Source: Stenotrophobium rhamnosiphilum
GTDB taxonomy: Bacteria > Pseudomonadota > Gammaproteobacteria > Nevskiales > Nevskiaceae
Assembly (NCBI RefSeq): GCF_003052265.1
Contig: NZ_QANS01000002.1
Location: 124,001 to 188,000 of the forward strand
Direction: 5' to 3'
DNA: 64,000 nt
Shown: positions 455-51,738 of the stretch, in pieces
Numbering within the stretch: the first letter of the stretch is position 1
How the letters are laid out: every line of letters starts with the position of its first letter
Position numbers and translations under genes: made by a program
Notes under the pieces: model-generated
Database searches by the model: none
What the model was told of the DNA's origin: nothing
What the model saw: only the letters and a program-made list of their open reading frames with translations

Positions 455-3046
455 ATGCTGCAAGCCTATCGCCAACACACTGCCGAGCGCGCCGCTCTCG
501 GAATTCCCCCGCTCGCGCTGACCGCTCAGCAAACCGCCGATCTGATCGAACTGATCAAGAACCCGCCCGCTGGCGAAGAGGCTTTCCTCGTTGACCTGCT
601 GACCCACCGCGTTCCACCCGGCGTGGATGACGCTGCCAAGGTCAAAGCTTCATTCCTGACCGTGGTTGCTGATGGCGAACTGCCTAGCAAACTGATCTCC
701 CGCGCCAAGGCCACCGAGCTGCTCGGCACGATGGTTGGCGGTTACAACGTTAAACCTCTGATCGACCTGCTGACCGATGCCGAAGTCGGCACCGTTGCTG
801 CAGAAGCACTGAAGAAAACGTTGTTGATGTTCGACTTCTTCCATGACGTCAGCGAACTTGCCAAGAAAGGCAACGCCAACGCTAAAGCCGTGATCCAGTC
901 TTGGGCCGATGCTGAGTGGTTCACCAGCCGTCCTGCAGTCGCCAAAAAGATCACCGTCTCCGTATTCAAGGTTCCTGGCGAAACCAACACCGACGACCTG
1001 TCCCCAGCACCCGATGCTTGGAGCCGTCCGGACATCCCACTTCACTACCTCGCTATGCTGAAGATGACGCGCTCCGACGCGGCCTTCAAGCCTGAAGAAG
1101 ACGGCAAGCGCGGCCCGATGCAGTTCATTGATGACTTGAAGAAGAAAGGCCATCTCGTTGCTTATGTTGGAGATGTTGTTGGTACCGGCTCTTCACGCAA
1201 GTCTGCAACCAACAGCGTGATCTGGGCCACGGGTGAAGATATCCCGTTCGTTCCGAACAAGCGCTTTGGTGGCGTGACCCTCGGCGGCAAGATCGCCCCG
1301 ATCTTCTTCAACACGCAGGAAGACTCCGGTTCGCTGCCGATTGAAGTTGATGTTTCCAAGTTTGAAATGGGCGATGTCATCGACATCTTCCCTTATGAAG
1401 GCAAGATCGAGAAGAACGGCGTTGTCGCTGAGCAGTTCCAGCTCAAGAGCGAAGTTCTACTTGATGAAGTACAAGCTGGCGGCCGTATCAACCTGATCAT
1501 CGGTCGCTCGCTGACCGGCAAGGCTCGCGAGTTCCTCGGTCTGCCTGCTTCGACGCTGTTCCGTCTGCCGCAGACCCCAGTTGCAACCAAGGCTGGCTTC
1601 ACGCTGGCGCAGAAGATGGTCGGCCGCGCTTGTGGTCTCCCAGAAGGCACGGGCATGCGCCCAGGCACCTACTGCGAACCGAAGATGACCACCGTCGGCT
1701 CACAGGACACCACCGGTCCTATGACGCGTGACGAACTGAAAGACCTCGCCTGCCTCGGCTTCTCCGCTGACCTCGTGATGCAGTCCTTCTGCCACACCGC
1801 TGCTTATCCGAAACCAGTCGACGTCAAAACCCATCGCGATCTGCCTGCGTTCATCTCGAACCGTGGCGGCGTTGCGCTGCGTCCGGGCGACGGCGTAATT
1901 CACTCCTGGCTCAACCGCTTGCTGTTGCCAGACACCGTCGGCACCGGCGGCGACTCGCACACCCGCTTCCCGATCGGCATTTCGTTCCCAGCTGGTTCAG
2001 GCCTCGTGGCTTTCGGTGCTGCTACCGGCGTGATGCCGCTGGACATGCCGGAATCCGTGCTCGTCCGCTTCAAAGGCGAAATGCAGCCTGGCGTCACGCT
2101 GCGTGATCTCGTCCACGCGATCCCGCTCTACGCAATCAAAGCGGGTCTGCTGACCGTCGCCAAAGCTGGCAAGGTCAACGTGTTCTCCGGTCGCGTACTG
2201 GAAATCGAAGGTCTGCCTAATCTGAAGGTTGAGCAGGCATTCGAACTGTCCGACGCTTCTGCAGAACGCTCAGCCGCAGGTTGCACGATCAAGCTCAACG
2301 ATGCACCGGTTATCGAGTACATGAACTCGAACATCGTGCTGATGAAGAACATGATTGCTAACGGCTATCAGGATGCACGCACACTGGAACGTCGCATCCA
2401 GAAGATGGAAGAGTGGCTCGCAAAACCGAACCTGCTCGAAGCAGACAAGGATGCTGAGTACGCTGCTGTCATCGAAATTGACCTCGCCGACATCAAGGAA
2501 CCCATCGTTTGCTGCCCGAACGATCCAGATGACGCCAAGTTCCTTTCGGAAGTTGCTGGCACCAAGATCGACGAAGCCTTCATCGGTTCGTGCATGACCA
2601 ACATCGGCCACTTCCGCGCTGCGGGCAAACTGCTCGAAGGCAAGAAGGACATCCCGGTTCGCCTGTGGATTGCTCCGCCAACGAAGATGGACGCTGCCAA
2701 GCTCACGCAGGAAGGCGTTTACAATACCTTCGGCACCGCCGGTGCACGCACCGAAATGCCGGGCTGCTCGCTGTGCATGGGCAACCAAGCGCAGATGAAG
2801 GAAGGCGCTACTGCGATCTCGACCTCGACTCGCAACTTCCCTAACCGCCTCGGCAAGAACACCAACGTGTTCCTCGGCTCGGCAGAACTCGCGGCAATCG
2901 CCTCGAAGATGGGCAAGCTGCCAACGCGCGAAGAGTATCTGGCTGAAATGGGCATCGTTAACAAAGCTTCAGATCAGATCTACCAGTACCTGAACTTCGA
3001 CAAGATCGAAGAGTACGCAGAAGCCGCGAAAACGGTCGCCGCGTAA
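455..3046 (+). CDS. acnB: Aconitate hydratase B (bifunctional, 2-methylisocitrate dehydratase)
   Basis: Full-length AcnB of 863 residues (E. coli AcnB has 865). It interconverts citrate and isocitrate in the TCA cycle and, in the family, hydrates 2-methylaconitate. An N-terminal HEAT-like helical domain opens with [11 protein letters not shown]. The 4Fe-4S ligands are visible as Cys713 (SCMTNIGH) and Cys771/Cys774 (GCSLCMGNQ), matching the C-x57-C-x2-C pattern of AcnB. The ATG at 455 gives the usual MLQAYR start; an in-frame ATG at 440 would add five residues, and neither has a strong Shine-Dalgarno sequence. It stands alone between terminators and is probably monocistronic. Apo-AcnB is known to bind mRNA under iron limitation in E. 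coli; this is family knowledge only. Confidence 0.97.
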
Positions 3047-12809: not shown

Positions 12810-12882
12810 GGCGCGCATTTTACGCGTGCTCGGTCGCTCGTGCGCATCTTGCGCCGACTACATACCGTTCATCCATAAACAT

Positions 12883-12915
12883 AAAAGCCCGACGTATCGA
12901 GGATACGCCGGGCCG
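12883..12915 (-). terminator. Rho-independent terminator of the tol-pal-cpoB operon
   Basis: A stem of about 11 bp with one mismatch (gcccgacgtatc against gatacgccgggc) lies 20 bases beyond the cpoB stop. Read leftward it is followed by TTTTATG. Confidence 0.8.
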
Positions 12916-26111: not shown

Positions 26112-27143
26112 CTAACGTGTAGAGCCATTCTGACGGAAAATACTAGGACTAATTCCACTCCAACGCACGAATGCGCGTGTAAAGCTGCGTCGATCTGAAA
26201 AACCCAAGCGCTCGCTAATGCTTTCGATATCTTCTGTGGAGTCGCGTAAGGCTTCGGACGCTAAGCGATATCGCACACGTGCTTGAAGTTCCGCGAAGCC
26301 CTCGCCTAGTTCACGTAAGCGCCGCTGCAAAGTACGCGGGTGTAATTCTAAAGTCGCAGCAACCTGTTCAATGCCCTGACCAAGCAAGCGTGGCTGCGCA
26401 CTGAAAGCCTGCTCAATGTCCGCAATCAATCCAGCCTTTCGCGGCAACTGTGCCAAGCGTTGCTCAACTCTGTATTCCGCTTGTTGATGCAATGCGGGAA
26501 ACGCGCTATCCAAAGGACGATCTAACAACTCGCGTTTAATTTCCAGCGCGTAACGCGGCTGATTGAACAACACGGGCACACGGAAAAATTCATCGTAGGC
26601 CGCCGCGTAGCTCGGCGGCGCATGGCGCATCTGCAAGCGATAGAACGGCACGGGCTCGCCCAACAGCATGCGACCAAATTTAAGCACCGATGCAAAAATG
26701 GTTTCACGAAAGTATGGAGGGCCAAACTCGCGGCCATCGCCCGCGTTAATCAGGACCAGTGCCGCTAGATCGCCTTCTTCAAGCAACTGCACATTGATCA
26801 TCGGATTGATCAATTCACGTACCCAGTCGAAAACACGCGCAGCGTCGCGCAGTGTTGGGCTCGTCGTCAGAAACGTTTCGATATCCGGCAAATATTCGAA
26901 CGCAAAAGTTTCACCCAGCACAAAAGGAAAATGATGCTTGGGCGAACGTGCGATGCAGGCATCCATCACCTTCAACAACAACGCAGGTTCAATGGTGGCG
27001 CTCTCCAGATGAATAAGATCCATCTGAATGCCCAGATCACGAAAGATCGGTTGAATATTGAATCCACAATGCGCAGCCGCCTTCACCCAATTGGGCAAAG
27101 TGATAAATGGAATCGGCTGATTGTGTAATGGTGTTGCGGCCAT
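26112..27143 (-). CDS. AraC-family transcriptional regulator
   Basis: A 343-residue regulator. The N-terminal two thirds match the AraC-type ligand-binding domain of the OruR group; the C terminus has two helix-turn-helix motifs (IEQVAATLELHPRTLQRRL and ISERLGFSDRRSFTRAFVRW). The frame is open to 27284, but its first 47 residues overlap a repeat-like segment and lack a conserved look, so the ATG at 27143 (MAATPLHNQPIPF) is preferred. It probably controls the adjacent MFS and hydrolase genes. Confidence 0.85.
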   Translation of the reverse strand: MAATPLHNQPIPFITLPNWVKAAAHCGFNIQPIFRDLGIQMDLIHLESATIEPALLLKVMDACIARSPKHHFPFVLGETFAFEYLPDIETFLTTSPTLRDAARVFDWVRELINPMINVQLLEEGDLAALVLINAGDGREFGPPYFRETIFASVLKFGRMLLGEPVPFYRLQMRHAPPSYAAAYDEFFRVPVLFNQPRYALEIKRELLDRPLDSAFPALHQQAEYRVEQRLAQLPRKAGLIADIEQAFSAQPRLLGQGIEQVAATLELHPRTLQRRLRELGEGFAELQARVRYRLASEALRDSTEDIESISERLGFSDRRSFTRAFVRWSGISPSIFRQNGSTR

Positions 27144-27259
27144 GCACAGCAGTATGCCTAGACCCAGAAGGTGCGCAAGCGCCGTATCGACAGCAGAGCA
27201 AGATTTTTCGGCACCGTTGCCGCTCCCGCGCATTCGGCAATTGCTCCTGCATTGCTCTA

Positions 27260-27316
27260 CTTCGGGCATCCATGCCCTCACCATGCGCCCGCGGCATTAC
27301 CGTACATCCTGTACAT
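27260..27316. repeat. Intergenic repeat copy 1, ending in the terminator-linked motif
   Basis: On the minus strand ATGTACAGGATGTAC (27316-27302) directly follows the U-tract of the sucB terminator, continues CGGTA and then CGCGGGCGCATGG, the same order as in the element at 51463. The boundary on the regulator side is not clear. Confidence 0.7.
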
Positions 27317-27317
27317 A

Positions 27318-27350
27318 AAAAAAACGCCCCGGAATCCGGGGCGCTTTTAA
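27318..27350 (-). terminator. Rho-independent terminator of sucAB
   Basis: An 8-bp GC stem (27325-27332 with 27336-27343, loop aat) followed leftward by eight T lies 13 bases beyond the sucB stop. Confidence 0.9.
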
Positions 27351-27362
27351 TCACACTGAAGC

Positions 27363-28580
27363 TTAGAGCTGCAGCAACAACTTAGCTGGATCTTCCAAGC
27401 ATTCTTTGATCGTGCGCAAGCTCAACACAGCCTCGCGACCATCGATGATGCGGTGATCGTAGGTCATCGCCAGATACATCATCGGGCGAATCACGATCTC
27501 ACCGTTCACGACGACTGGACGTTCAGTGATGCCGTGCATGCCGAGAATTGCGCTCTGCGGGGGGTTCAGAATCGGCGTCGACATCATCGAACCGAAGATG
27601 CCACCGTTGGTGACGGAGAACGTACCGCCGGTGAGATCTTCCATCGTCAACTTGTTGTCTTTGGCTTTCGCGCCGTAGGCAGCAATCGACTTTTCGATAT
27701 CAGCAAACGACAGCTGATCTGCATCACGCAGAATTGGCACAACCAAACCGCGTGGTGACGACACAGCAATGCCGATGTCGTAGTAGCCGTGATAGACGAT
27801 GTCAGTACCGTCGACAGACGCATTCACTGCCGGATATTTCTTCAGCGCTTCAATCACTGCGCGAACGAAGAACGACATGAAACCGAGTTTGACGCCGTGC
27901 GCTTTCTCGAAGCCATCCTTGTACTTGGCGCGAATGTCGTTGATCGCCTTCAGATCAACTTCATTGAACGTCGTCAGCATCGCAGCCGTCGACTGTGCTT
28001 CGATCAAACGCTCCGCAATACGTTGGCGGATACGGGTCATCGGCACGCGCTGTTCTTCGCGAGCGCCCAGAGCACGTGGTGCGGCTGGCGCAGCAACAGC
28101 GGCAGCAGGCTTGGCCGCTGCGGCAGGTGCTGGTTTAGCGGCATGTGCTTTCACGTCTTCAATCGTGAGGCGACCACCTTTGCCCGTGCCGGCAATCTGC
28201 GAAGCAGACAGTCCCAACTCGGACAGCAATTTGCGTACTGCGGGGCTCTGACCGTCGTCGCTGCTCATCGCACCAGCAGCGCTTGTGGCAGGTGCAGCGG
28301 CAGCAGCTGCCTGTGCAGGCGCAGGTGCGGCAGCAGCGGCAACGCCTTCTTCAAGAATGCCGAGCACATCACCGGCTTGAACGGTTGCGCCAGCCTGCAC
28401 GCGAATTTCTTTGAGAATGCCGTCAACAGTTGAAGGCACTTCGAGCATGACCTTGTCGGTTTCGAGGTCGAGCATGTTCTGCTCACGCTTCACTGCATCA
28501 CCAGCCTTCAAGTGCCAAGTTGCAACAATGGCTGAGGACACTGATTCCGGCAGATTCGGTACTTTAATTTCTATGCTCAT
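27363..28580 (-). CDS. sucB: 2-oxoglutarate dehydrogenase E2, dihydrolipoyl succinyltransferase
   Basis: A 405-residue E2 subunit. The lipoyl domain has the lipoylated Lys in [13 protein letters not shown] (about residue 43), followed by an Ala/Pro linker, an E1/E3-binding domain ([19 protein letters not shown]) and the catalytic domain ending [16 protein letters not shown] with the active-site His. It is one operon with sucA, with a strong terminator after it. Confidence 0.97.
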
Positions 28581-45125: not shown

Positions 45126-46841
45126 ATGACGATCAAGTTTCAAAAAGTTTTTGCTCTTGCAGCATTGGGGATGGCTGTTACCGCCTATTCAGGCGTTACA
45201 GCAGCAGCGCAAGCCGATCCGGGTTGGTATTTCGGCATCGAAGGCTTCAGCTCAAAAGTAAAAGATGCTGATGGCACTGCCACGACAACGGCTACCAACA
45301 CTGTTGCACCTGTCGGCGGCGTTTGCCCCGCTGGTAGCACCGCAGTTTTGGGTGGCTTGCTTGATCCTCTTAACGTACTGATTCCGAGTGGCCTCACTGC
45401 CCTCACCCTTTGCGTGATTGCACCAGCTGGCGGCACGCCTGGTTCGAGCACAACGCAAACGGTCACCGCGCCAACCAGCGCGACGTTCAAGAACAGTTTT
45501 GGCGGCGGCTTCTCGCTGGGCTACATGTTCAACGGCGGCTTCCGTCCTGAATTGAACTTTGCCTATACGCAGAACGACCTCAAGACGTTTGCACTGGGCG
45601 GCACCGACGTTCCAGTTAACAACACGACCATCACCGCCTATCGCGCGATGGCGAATGCTTGGTTCGACTTTGATTTCGGCATCCCTGTTACGCCTTACTT
45701 GGGCGGCGGTGTTGGCGCGCAGTTGAGCAAACTCGAAAGCGACGGCAGCAGCGCGAATGACACGACCTTCACCTATCAATTGGGTGGCGGTGTGAATTTC
45801 TGGGCAACCAGCAAGCTGGCGCTGTCACTTGACTACCGCTACGTCGTTGCAGGCCAACCAACGTTTGAAACCACCACTGTTGTCGGTGGATCAGCCACCC
45901 ATACGTCTCAGCAGAGCGATTACAAAGCACAGCAGATCGGCGTTGGCCTGAAATATCTGTTCGGCGAATTTGGCCGCGATGTTGGCGACAAAGATGGCGA
46001 CGGCGTTCCAGATCGTCTCGACAAGTGCCCGAACACGCCTAAGGGCGTGCAGGTCAATCTCGAAGGCTGCCCACTTGATACCGATGGCGACGGCGTTCCT
46101 GACTACCTCGACAAGTGCCCAGGCACGGCGAAGGGTGCAGTTGTGAATGCTGAAGGTTGCGTACTTGATTCCGATGGTGACGGCGTACCGGATTACCTCG
46201 ACAAGTGCCCGAATACACCGAAGGGCGTGCAAGTTGACGCGAATGGCTGCCCATCAGCTGATAGCGACGGCGACGGCGTTCCTGACTACCTCGACAAGTG
46301 CCCTAAGACCCCAGTGGGTCAGAAGGTTGGTCCAGATGGCTGCCCACTCGATAGCGATGGCGACGGCATTCCAGACGACCAAGACGAGTGCCCGAACACG
46401 CCAGCTGGCGCCAAGGTACTTCCAAACGGTTGCGCACTGAAAGGTGATTGCCGCCGTCCACGTCCAGGCGAACAGGTTGACGAACACGGATGCGCGGTTG
46501 AACACAGCTTCATCCTGAAAGGCGTGAAGTTTGAATTCGACTCCGACCGTCTGACTCCAGCAGCTAAGGAAATTCTGAACCAAGTTGGCGAAACGCTGAA
46601 GGCTTATCCTGAAGTTAACGTCGAAGTTCAGGGTCACACCGACTACATCGGCACCGACGCATACAACCTCGGCCTGTCTGAGAAGCGTGCGATTGCTGTG
46701 AAGGTCTATCTGAGCGGTAAAGGCGTAGACGTTAAGCGCCTCAGCCCAGTTGGCTACGGCAAGACCCGTCCAATCGACACCAACGAAACCGAAGCCGGCC
46801 GCGAAAACAACCGCCGCGTTGAGCTGAAAGTTCTTGAGTAA
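45126..46841 (+). CDS. OmpA-type outer-membrane protein with five TSP3 calcium-binding repeats
   Basis: A 571-residue protein. Signal peptide (cleavage near residue 28-30), an OmpA-like barrel (residues about 32-285) with an unusual 70-residue Ala/Thr/Gly/Val-rich insert early on (about 48-118), then five thrombospondin type 3 repeats (residues 288-438; DSDGDGVPDYLDKCP units with conserved Cys), then an OmpA_C peptidoglycan-binding domain (FEFDSDRLT, QGHTDYIGTDAYN, ENNRRVE). It links outer membrane to wall and may bind calcium through the Asp-rich repeats. A close paralogue lies at 49898. GGGGA six bases before the ATG supports the start. Confidence 0.93.
   Translation: MTIKFQKVFALAALGMAVTAYSGVTAAAQADPGWYFGIEGFSSKVKDADGTATTTATNTVAPVGGVCPAGSTAVLGGLLDPLNVLIPSGLTALTLCVIAPAGGTPGSSTTQTVTAPTSATFKNSFGGGFSLGYMFNGGFRPELNFAYTQNDLKTFALGGTDVPVNNTTITAYRAMANAWFDFDFGIPVTPYLGGGVGAQLSKLESDGSSANDTTFTYQLGGGVNFWATSKLALSLDYRYVVAGQPTFETTTVVGGSATHTSQQSDYKAQQIGVGLKYLFGEFGRDVGDKDGDGVPDRLDKCPNTPKGVQVNLEGCPLDTDGDGVPDYLDKCPGTAKGAVVNAEGCVLDSDGDGVPDYLDKCPNTPKGVQVDANGCPSADSDGDGVPDYLDKCPKTPVGQKVGPDGCPLDSDGDGIPDDQDECPNTPAGAKVLPNGCALKGDCRRPRPGEQVDEHGCAVEHSFILKGVKFEFDSDRLTPAAKEILNQVGETLKAYPEVNVEVQGHTDYIGTDAYNLGLSEKRAIAVKVYLSGKGVDVKRLSPVGYGKTRPIDTNETEAGRENNRRVELKVLE
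45987..46439 (+). repeat. Tandem TSP3-coding array, five units
   Basis: Five consecutive units of about 87-93 bases encode DxDGDGxPDxxDxCPxTxxG with a GC pair near each end. DNA units are alike enough (gatggcgacggcgttcc is recurrent) to permit slippage or unequal crossing-over. Confidence 0.9.
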
Positions 46842-46856
46842 GTAGTTTGATGTAAC

Positions 46857-46892
46857 TAAAAACCCGCCAGCTAAAACTGGCGGGTTTTTATT
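46857..46892 (+). terminator. Rho-independent terminator of the first OmpA-type gene
   Basis: Stem aacccgccag with ctggcgggtt, loop ctaaaa, followed by TTTTATTT, 16 bases after the stop. Confidence 0.9.
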
Positions 46893-46910
46893 TGCACGAC
46901 GCGATGTATC

Positions 46911-47060
46911 CCGTGGGCGCATAGATGCGCAGGAACGGGATTCTCACCCAGCTCTCAGGCCTCTCTAAATGGGAAATGCATGGAGCGACGCGGTCGGCGA
47001 ACTAAATGCTCTGCTTATGAAGCATGGACACTAGCGCGACGTTCACTCCCCCGCCCCGCA
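46911..47060. repeat. Intergenic repeat copy 2 (mosaic modules)
   Basis: Between the OmpA-type gene and the hydrolase lie modules also present at 51463-51698. A 25-base identical block covers 46925-46949 (core CGCAGGAACGGGATTCTC), and a 23-base identical block covers 46977-46999 (core TGGAGCGACGCGGTCGGC). The order of the two blocks is reversed relative to the other copy. Confidence 0.75.
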
Positions 47061-49635: not shown

Positions 49636-49897
49636 TTGTGTGTTCCTCGAGAAACTTTTTTTGAATTGCCGCGTAAGACAACCAGCTTTAAGGGCTTGTG
49701 TGAGTATATCGACATTGTTTGAGCAATGGTATTCTAATCCAGTGGGTATGTAGAAGAATATTTTGTATCATGGCCCATCGGCCGGTTATGATCCTGCCAC
49801 GATTCCGTTGTGCATCTTTGCGATGTCCGTCACGGTATGTAGCGGTGTTGGTTTGATCGAATACGCTGTAACGTCTACGCTCAAGGGGAACCTGCAA

Positions 49898-51406
49898 ATG
49901 ATAAGAAGTAAAATACTGGCCGCATTTTTTGCGCTGTGGGCCGTCACTACCGTTGCACATGCGGGTGATGATTACGACAAGCGTTGGTATATCTCACCTA
50001 CGATCGGCGCCGTACTGTCCGACCAGAGCGATCTAGATAGCGGCCCAATGGGTCAGATTTCGGTGGGTCGCTCACTGGCGAACTACCAGGGTTTTGAATT
50101 CGAAGGTGGCTATAGCAGCCTGACCGTGGGTCATCTGCCTGCCAAGAACAAGTACAACCGCGTCGTAGGCGGTGTGAACTTGATCCAATACCTTGCTCCG
50201 GAATCTTGGACGTTCCGTCCATACTTGCTTGGCAATCTTAACTATCACTCGATTAGCTTCCTTGGCGAACGCCAAGGTGGCGTGGGCTATGGCTTAGGTG
50301 CAGGTGCATTTGTGCGTCTGTCGCAGGCCATTGATCTGCGCTTTGACGCCCGCTACAACACCGATATGATTCGTGATCGCGGCGGCGTTCTGCAGAAGAC
50401 CAACTTCTACGTTGTGACCGCAGGCGTTGGCGCACGCATCAAGTTTGGCGCTGACCCATCGGATAGCGATGGCGACGGCGTTCCAAATGACCGCGATAAA
50501 TGCCCTAACACGCCTAAAGGTGTTGCCGTCAATGCTGATGGCTGCCCACCGGATAGCGATGGCGACGGCGTTCCTGACTACCTCGACAAGTGCCCACGTA
50601 CGGCTCCTGGCGTAGTGGTTAATGCCGATGGTTGCCCAGCTGATAGCGATGGCGACGGCGTTCCTGATTACCTCGACAAGTGCCCGAACACCGCTAGAGG
50701 CGTTCAGGTTGGCGCTGACGGTTGCCCATTGGATTCCGATGGCGACGGCGTTCCTGACTACCTCGACAAGTGCCCGAACACGCCACGCGGTACGCCAGTA
50801 AATGGCGACGGCTGCCCGTTCACGGATAGCGATGGTGACGGCATTCCTGACTACCTCGACAAGTGCCCTAATACGGCCAAGGGCCAGAAGGTTGGTCCAG
50901 ATGGTTGCCCACTCGACAGCGATGGCGACGGCATCCCAGATGATCAGGACGAGTGCCCGAACACGCCAGCTGGCGCCAAGGTACTTCCAAACGGTTGCGC
51001 ACTGAAAGGTGATTGCCGCCGTCCACGTCCAGGTGAACAGGTTGACGAACACGGATGCGCGCTTGAGCACAACTTCATCCTTAAGGGTGTGAAGTTTGAG
51101 TTCGACTCCGACCGTCTGACCGCAGCTGCTAAGGAAATCCTGAATCAGGTTGCCGAAACGCTGAAGGCCTATCCAGAAGTTAACGTCGAAGTTCAGGGGC
51201 ACACCGACTACATCGGTACCGACGCCTACAACCTCGGCCTGTCTGAGAAGCGTGCGATTGCTGTGAAGGTCTATCTGGGTGGCAAGGGCGTTCAAACCCA
51301 GCGCCTCAGCCCAGTTGGCTACGGCAAGACCCGCCCAATCGACACCAACGAAACCGAAGCCGGCCGCGAAAACAACCGCCGCGTTGAGCTGAAAGTTCTC
51401 GAGTAA
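49898..51406 (+). CDS. OmpA-type outer-membrane protein with six TSP3 calcium-binding repeats
   Basis: A 502-residue paralogue of the gene at 45126. Signal peptide ends at AHA (residue 22), then an OmpA-like barrel (23-188), six TSP3 units (189-369) and an OmpA_C domain. The barrel differs strongly from that of the first copy, whereas the last repeats and OmpA_C are nearly identical in DNA. The ATG at 49898 with AGGGG upstream is used; the frame is open to 49763 but the extra residues are unlikely to be translated. Confidence 0.93.
   Translation: MIRSKILAAFFALWAVTTVAHAGDDYDKRWYISPTIGAVLSDQSDLDSGPMGQISVGRSLANYQGFEFEGGYSSLTVGHLPAKNKYNRVVGGVNLIQYLAPESWTFRPYLLGNLNYHSISFLGERQGGVGYGLGAGAFVRLSQAIDLRFDARYNTDMIRDRGGVLQKTNFYVVTAGVGARIKFGADPSDSDGDGVPNDRDKCPNTPKGVAVNADGCPPDSDGDGVPDYLDKCPRTAPGVVVNADGCPADSDGDGVPDYLDKCPNTARGVQVGADGCPLDSDGDGVPDYLDKCPNTPRGTPVNGDGCPFTDSDGDGIPDYLDKCPNTAKGQKVGPDGCPLDSDGDGIPDDQDECPNTPAGAKVLPNGCALKGDCRRPRPGEQVDEHGCALEHNFILKGVKFEFDSDRLTAAAKEILNQVAETLKAYPEVNVEVQGHTDYIGTDAYNLGLSEKRAIAVKVYLGGKGVQTQRLSPVGYGKTRPIDTNETEAGRENNRRVELKVLE
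50462..51004 (+). repeat. Tandem TSP3-coding array, six units
   Basis: Six units of about 87-93 bases. The last unit shares 86 identical bases with the other array and the region after it (50948-51033 equals 46383-46468). Confidence 0.9.
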
Positions 51407-51422
51407 TTAGTACGTAGTAACT

Positions 51423-51462
51423 AAAAGCCCCGCTGGAGCAATCCAGCGGGGCTTTTCTTTTT
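51423..51462 (+). terminator. Rho-independent terminator of the second OmpA-type gene
   Basis: A 15-bp stem (51423-51437 with 51442-51456, loop gcaa), followed by CTTTTTAT that runs straight into the repeat motif at 51463. Confidence 0.92.
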
Positions 51463-51698
51463 ATGTACAGGATGTACGGTACCTACGCGGGCACATGGAT
51501 GCGCAGGAGCGGAGGTGTTTGTGCAGAGATGCTCTGCCCATATGCGCGTGCATGGAGCGACGCGGTCGGCGGATTAGATGAACTCCGACAACAGCATGCG
51601 CAGGAACGGGATTCTCACCCCGTTCTCAGGTCTCGCTAGTTGGCGAGAACCCCACTCCTGCGCATCCTGCGCCCGTGGAGTACGTCCATCCTGTACAT
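51463..51698. repeat. 236-bp intergenic element with inverted ends (repeat copy 3)
   Basis: The element fills nearly all the space between two convergent genes. Left end ATGTACAGGATGTAC (51463-51477); right end GTCCATCCTGTACAT (51684-51698), its inverted near-copy. Inside are modules shared with 46925-46999 and several ATGCGCAGG/CATGGATGCGC motifs. No ORF is convincing. Confidence 0.8.
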
Positions 51699-51699
51699 A

Positions 51700-51738
51700 A
51701 AAAAGCGGCGCATGCCTACGCATACGCCGCTTTTTATT
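51700..51738 (-). terminator. Rho-independent terminator of the carboxylase alpha gene
   Basis: Stem aaaagcggcg-atgc with gcat-cgccgctttt around ctac. Read leftward from the alpha-subunit stop it ends in a T-run, directly followed by the inverted repeat end. Confidence 0.88.

Follow-up and report, generated by a model that had tools for sequence, protein, structure and literature searches.

A dispersed two-hairpin repeat directly behind intrinsic terminators of Stenotrophobium rhamnosiphilum, with candidate CsrA-binding loops

The motif ATGTACAGGATGTAC, which had been noticed behind three terminators in a 64,000-nucleotide stretch of the S. rhamnosiphilum genome (contig NZ_QANS01000002.1; here called the window), proved upon alignment of its copies to be the 5′ hairpin, i.e., the first 15 nt, of a structured repeat of ~52 nt. 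The repeat family, its structure, and its specificity for terminators are solid observations. We consider it probable that the repeat is a non-autonomous, REP-like mobile element that targets terminators, carries CsrA-type hairpins, and possibly serves as a distributed decoy. A repeat combining a post-terminator position with CsrA-type loops is undescribed in Rfam and in the literature searched, which included few subscription journals.

A structured repeat and its position behind terminators

When the genome (3.96 Mb, 21 contigs) was searched for the motif with up to two mismatches, 42 matches were obtained, relative to 3 for a reversed control pattern; in the window, five matches with up to three mismatches were found, relative to 0.60 ± 0.74 expected. 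The covariance model R1 identified 53 genomic copies at E ≤ 0.002, with E-values reaching 4e-15, and the family total is ~54; genome-wide statistics were computed over the loci extracted from the genome. The consensus starts ATGTAC(A)GGATGTAC and forms two hairpins, the order of the unit being ATGTACAGGATGTAC GGTA, a variable outer stem, GG, GCGC-ATGGAT-GCGC, AGGA, and the other arm of the outer stem. Each unit contains two to three GGA triplets, the third of which sits in an internal loop. The count is higher in tandems and in an insert variant (about seven genomic copies) that carries ~48 nt inside loop 2. The top strand of this variant forms four hairpins, compared with two in the basic ~52-nt unit, the insert bringing two additional GGA hairpins. 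Copies were found in tandem, head-to-head, and nested arrangements.

The window carries five of the ~54 copies, as follows.

51423..51462, plus strand: intrinsic terminator of the second OmpA-type gene, with a perfect 15-bp stem and a T-rich tail whose last T adjoins the element
51463..51515, plus strand: element copy behind this gene (model R2, 59.1 bits, E = 4e-12)
51465-51477, plus strand: hairpin 1 of this copy, GUAC-AGGAU-GUAC
around 51492-51505, plus strand: hairpin 2 of this copy, loop AUGGAU, one stem mismatch, with the third GGA immediately 3′
51649..51698, minus strand: element copy behind the biotin-carboxylase alpha gene (58.2 bits); hairpin 1 has one stem mismatch, and hairpin 2 is GCGC-AGGAU-GCGC
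51699..51735, minus strand: terminator and T-run of the carboxylase gene
27217..27316, minus strand: long insert-variant copy behind sucB, with extra hairpins GGGC-AUGGAU-GCCC and GCAGGAGC
27317..27348, minus strand: sucB terminator (14-nt arms 27320-27333 and 27335-27348) and T-run
46859..46889, plus strand: terminator of the first OmpA-type gene, ending one base before the next copy
46890..46941, plus strand: decayed copy behind this gene (48.4 bits)
12831..12882, minus strand: decayed copy behind a ybgF/cpoB-like gene (37.2 bits)
12883..12914, minus strand: terminator of the ybgF/cpoB-like gene, with the copy immediately behind it

The earlier note had placed the motif at 27302-27316 (minus strand), 51463-51477 (plus strand), and 51684-51698 (minus strand, one mismatch). 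All three were located, each beginning with the first base past a T-run and oriented, as had been claimed, away from the gene, such that the element has the same sense as the gene whose terminator precedes it. They did not, however, represent the full extent of the repeat, given that the unit spans ~52 nt and that two further, decayed copies lie in the window. The copies that begin at 51463 and at 51684-51698 face each other, with convergent genes on either side. GGA is missing from one or both loops in two of the five window copies: at 46890 every stem is intact and GGA is gone from both loops (ACGAC and AUAGAU), while at 12831..12882 loop 1 is an intact AUGGAU and loop 2 is AAGAU.

The two OmpA-type genes (45126-46841 and 49763-51406) have near-identical C termini and different terminators, with an element copy behind each; one of these copies has kept its GGA loops, and the other has not. 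In the sucB region (27363-28580 and 26112-27284), the gene has its own terminator and is followed by a same-strand AraC-type regulator frame rather than by sucC.

Genome-wide, the first base of the element lay 0 to 3 nt behind the U-tract in 42 of 54 copies when a relaxed terminator detector was used, whereas this detector scored 92 of 4,965 positions (1.9%) at matched distances from other stop codons. A strict detector placed a terminator directly 5′ of 36 of the 54 copies, relative to 198 of 6,000 random positions (P = 5e-39, Fisher test). The association was one-sided, since an opposite-strand terminator met the 3′ end of the element in only 2 of 54 copies. These counts uphold the earlier note's view that the positional link exceeds that of a random dispersed repeat; a genome-wide search of the motif against terminators had been named beforehand as the test, and the preference for sites just behind terminators was found. 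The 12 copies without a terminator include two that form the second unit of a tandem and three that are embedded in a different dispersed repeat. This repeat, GTCATTCCGAACGCAGTGAGGAATCTT...AAGATCCCTCGC, surrounds the copies in L011, L039, and L049 (at about 1460-1500, immediately upstream of the element) and has at least four other genomic copies.

The called left-hand gene had the same sense as the element in 38 of 50 copies, as judged with a simple open reading frame caller, and was often 45 to 60 nt away. The terminators preceding the element vary in sequence from copy to copy, and the genes upstream of them are diverse (sucB, citrate synthase, bacterioferritin, secG, glmU, an RhlB-like helicase, ybgF, an amidase, RNase P RNA, and others), with no shared functional class seen among them. 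A second terminator was detected downstream of 41 of 54 copies and 198 of 353 controls, although the detector used was noisy.

Covarying hairpins and their likeness to CsrA sites

In alignments that were fitted to the model, which favors a covariation signal, 98.1% of stem cells among 52 distinct rows from the genome itself held standard pairs, and 73 stem cells were doubly changed, compared with 11.6 ± 2.8 in shuffles (none of 500 reached this number). Among 99 distinct rows from other genomes, fitted in the same way, 98.6% of stem cells held standard pairs and 99 were doubly changed, compared with 9.7 in shuffles (none of 500). Sliding the pairing partner by 1 to 3 columns destroyed the covariation signal, and double changes in the stems are visible by eye (GTAC/GTAC, GTTC/GAAC, GGTC/GACC, GCCC/GGGC, and GTGC/GCAC).

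The loops are as constrained as their stems are variable. An A(N)GGA(N) loop was found in 48 of 52 hairpin 1 parses and 42 of 45 hairpin 2 parses in the genome itself, and in most copies elsewhere, although the exact GGA-loop fraction is biased upward because R1 was trained on GGA loops. These loops were kept across 14 hairpin 1 and 6 hairpin 2 stem sequences. The base after the first A can be any letter or missing, which yields loops of 5 or 6 nt; nearly all copies have a C-G closing pair. In the RNA sense, G-U pairs were not clearly favored over A-C pairs (16 versus 9 over both alignments).

This loop resembles the sites bound by proteins of the CsrA/RsmA family. The SELEX consensus for CsrA, RUACARGGAUGU, presents GGA in a mostly 6-nt loop with AC/GU pairing, in hairpins usually of four or fewer base pairs (PMC7652899), and in an RsmZ hairpin it is the ANGGAN loop that RsmN binds (PMC3791407). 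Hairpin 1 of the element, GUAC-A(N)GGAU-GUAC, comes near the SELEX consensus, which is present exactly in some copies (the second unit of L022, L121, and L123), and the element hairpins have the A(N)GGA(N) loop, short stem, and C-G closing pair of CsrA/RsmA hairpins. A single csrA is present in the genome; 51 residues of its product can be aligned with E. coli CsrA, the VHREEI stretch among them. Among genomes of the class sample that were ≥90% complete and ≤5% contaminated, the family was present in 70 of 280 with csrA and in 1 of 34 without it (P = 0.002, Fisher test), statistics that ignore phylogeny and an association that is confounded by phylogeny and genome reduction.

Based on the loop and stem sequences, we infer with good support that CsrA would bind the element hairpins. 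Two observations call for caution, namely, the unclear G-U strand bias and the copy at 46890, which has kept its stems and lost both GGAs, as though the importance of the hairpins did not depend on CsrA binding.

Insertion, spread, and known systems

In the congener G001, orthologous terminators lack the element at several sites. This points to the terminators being older and the repeat being an insertion rather than a terminator part. The broader model R2 gave seven matches in this congener, and at two sites (L137/L097, and L057 with G001:C20:215005) an element is present in G000 as well as in G001, with stems that differ but are compensated. The interval between gap and pgk contains an element in G001 and G010, which belong to two genera, and none in G000 and G021, a pattern that fits repeated insertion or repeated loss. 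We considered the conserved gap-pgk site as proof of function and rejected it, given that G000 and G021 are empty there. In L099 and L100 (G010 and G001), the element precedes the start of pgk by ~20 to 30 nt, a placement from which bound CsrA could affect this glycolytic gene.

The family was present, in patchy bursts, in 84 of 369 genomes evenly sampled from the same class, and in the phylum sample all matches outside the class fell in one family, f211. Cores exactly matching the query pattern were found in Marinobacterium, Nitrincola, Neptunomonas, an Alteromonadaceae bacterium, and several MAGs; the cores in other genera lie mostly behind terminators, with the same T-run junction. The ~54 copies, the varied terminators, the empty sites in the congener, and the bursts in other genera support one of the two readings offered by the earlier note, that of an element inserting behind terminators. 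Phages and plasmids searched with a 51-mer gave no match. A search of nested copies for clean target-site duplications gave no clear boundary because the loop of the host repeat varies. In L098 (~1501-1551, minus strand), a 51-nt copy lies in frame within a long open reading frame, to which it adds 17 codons and no stop.

A 42-nt segment of the insert variant that includes an ANGGAN hairpin recurs in Pseudoalteromonas at 90 to 93% identity, in the context of an apparent inverted-repeat element of a different type, which suggests that the module is mobile between carriers. On Pseudoalteromonas megaplasmids (L317 and L318, ~1420-1630), a ~210-nt repeat with the ends ATACCAATCCGC.../...GCGAATTGGTAT shares the ATGGAT hairpin and the GCAATGCAGGAGCAATTGC module with the insert variant.

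The overall pattern is that of a mobile, non-autonomous repeat, presumably moved by some enzyme. No transposase could be linked to it in this genome, whose one Y1 transposase (Y1_Tnp, C16:92652) has no copies nearby, the nearest element being at C16:104610; mobilization by a RAYT was not supported, since no RAYT is flanked by copies. In Marinobacterium rhizophilum, a RAYT-like transposase frame (L073, 913-1437) lies near a tandem of the element and is bordered by a different repeat.

The element resembles the RAYT-mobilized REP, BIME, and REPIN repeats in being short, extragenic, hairpin forming, present in high copy number and in bursts per genome, and arranged both in tandem and head-to-head; the ~54 copies with covarying hairpins are high-copy, short extragenic palindromes, as in REP/RAYT systems. 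The REPs listed in PMC2817692, however, begin with a GTAG/GTGG-type head followed by one palindrome, whereas the element has no such head, carries two A(N)GGA(N) hairpins, occupies a strict post-terminator position, and has no cognate RAYT flanked by copies.

The repeated GGA loops, matching CsrA/RsmA sites, recall the Csr/Rsm decoy small RNAs (CsrB, CsrC, RsmX/Y/Z, and Pf1 of Pseudoalteromonas [PMC9927453]). These are single genes with their own promoter and terminator, in contrast to ~54 loci mostly behind another gene's terminator, and the Rfam models for Csr/Rsm RNAs did not match the element. In the E. coli RNAs RrA, RrB, and RrF, CsrA-binding GGA motifs lie just behind a first terminator and are made by read-through (PMC8144298). 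Those RNAs are limited to positions behind three rRNA operons, where they lie between dual terminators, and do not form a dispersed mobile repeat. The element loop ATGGAT also fits the AYGGAY of the TwoAYGGAY RNA motif (RF01731), which has paired AYGGAY loops and has been proposed to bind CsrA (PMC4333381), but RF01731 gave no match at the gathering threshold in the window nor at E-values up to 10 in seven loci that carry the element. No Rfam family matched the element, whether the threshold was gathering or permissive.

Group IIC introns are ribozymes of far greater size that come with a reverse transcriptase, whereas the element, at 52 nt, is non-coding and too short to code, and no Rfam intron matched it. 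The likeness lies in the target, since these introns insert after intrinsic terminators (Robart et al. 2007, as cited in PMC7161350), and the element likewise inserts directly behind them. The literature, searched with few subscription journals, gave no description of the repeat family, which may nevertheless have an existing name; a literal search for its sequence did not find the core and gave one 12-mer match, in a Pseudomonas FleQ paper. As judged from Rfam and this literature, the motif is not one arm of a known repeat, the possibility raised by the earlier note, but belongs to a larger, undescribed one.

Proposed role and competing readings

We propose that the element inserts at the T-tract directly behind a terminator hairpin, its top strand being co-oriented with the gene that terminates there, and that insertion would be tolerated there because the element stays outside the mRNA. 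Most transcripts would stop before it, and the read-through fraction would carry CsrA/RsmA sites; its hairpins, together with the third GGA, have the layout expected for an RNA that binds the CsrA/RsmA dimer, and its top strand would offer at least two such sites ~25 nt apart. Summed over ~54 loci, the copies could constitute a diffuse, transcription-coupled CsrA decoy, or they may at least be harmless. A position past the U-tract may make RNA of the element scarce. Transcription of the element and a sponge effect are presumptive, and a sponge role is hypothetical. The strongest form of the proposal, in which a mobile family, mainly of one Pseudomonadota class, inserts decoy hairpins behind terminators and so forms a transposon-built, genome-wide CsrA sponge, strikes us as possible rather than probable.

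If this sponge were real, read-through of dozens of unrelated genes would feed back on a global regulator. Palindromic repeats are usually viewed as selfish or as nucleoid or mRNA stability sites, and Csr decoys are usually viewed as a few dedicated small RNAs; binding by CsrA would join dispersed palindromic repeats with Csr/Rsm regulation, two fields that have been kept apart. It would also offer a route to the quick origin of Csr decoys or CsrA targets and explain why post-terminator insertion is tolerated. Even without CsrA, precise recognition of terminators would be a new insertion specificity, one testable in culturable genera such as Marinobacterium.

The main rival holds that the repeat is a purely selfish, REP/MITE-like DNA element whose single-stranded hairpins and GGA loops are recognized by a transposase or another mobility enzyme that prefers T-tracts behind hairpins, with CsrA irrelevant. 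The patchy bursts, the tandem and head-to-head copies, the terminator targeting, the empty sites, and the in-frame coding copy all agree with it, as do the REP/RAYT systems, which are built on hairpins (PMC2817692); covarying stems fit DNA hairpins equally well, and the copy at 46890 has stems without GGA. It leaves unexplained, however, the common A(N)GGA(N) degeneracy of two hairpins whose stems are unrelated, their 5- or 6-nt loops, and their C-G closing pair, all matching CsrA/RsmA sites. Given also that the family is rare in genomes without csrA and that the candidate enzyme was not found, we regard this reading as rather unlikely, albeit a serious competitor.

A less likely reading, and one that we doubt, is that the copies are individual regulatory RNAs, each of which, as a read-through tail at the 3′ end or a leader at the 5′ end, places the neighboring gene under CsrA control. 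The two sites occupied in both G000 and G001 with compensated stems speak for it, as do the position shortly before pgk in two genera and the precedent of the CsrA-binding read-through RNAs between dual terminators of E. coli (PMC8144298). Against this stand the diverse functions of the upstream genes, the several empty sites in the congener, the absence of the element from gap-pgk in G000 and G021, and a downstream second terminator that was only mildly commoner than in controls with the noisy detector.

The second reading in the earlier note, a functional tail of the terminator or RNA 3′ end (for processing, exonuclease blocking, or prevention of read-through), agrees with the exact abutment to the U-tract and with the sense orientation but fares poorly otherwise. 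Terminated transcripts should already have ended upstream of the element, relatives keep orthologous terminators without it, several copies (second tandem units and nested copies) follow no terminator, and the conserved features are CsrA-type loops rather than processing signals, so that we judge it very improbable. Chance recurrence of a dispersed word or low-complexity similarity, for which only the short length of the original motif argued, has practically no standing, having already been refuted by the reversed-pattern control, the E-values, and the near-exact copies in other genera.

Beside this family, the intergenic stretches preceding the terminator in L038 (~1390-1500) and L057 (~1430-1500), both on contig C16 of G000, look unusually conserved relative to the congener G001 and are rich in CTCC/CTCCC. 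They had no Rfam match and might be unannotated small RNAs.
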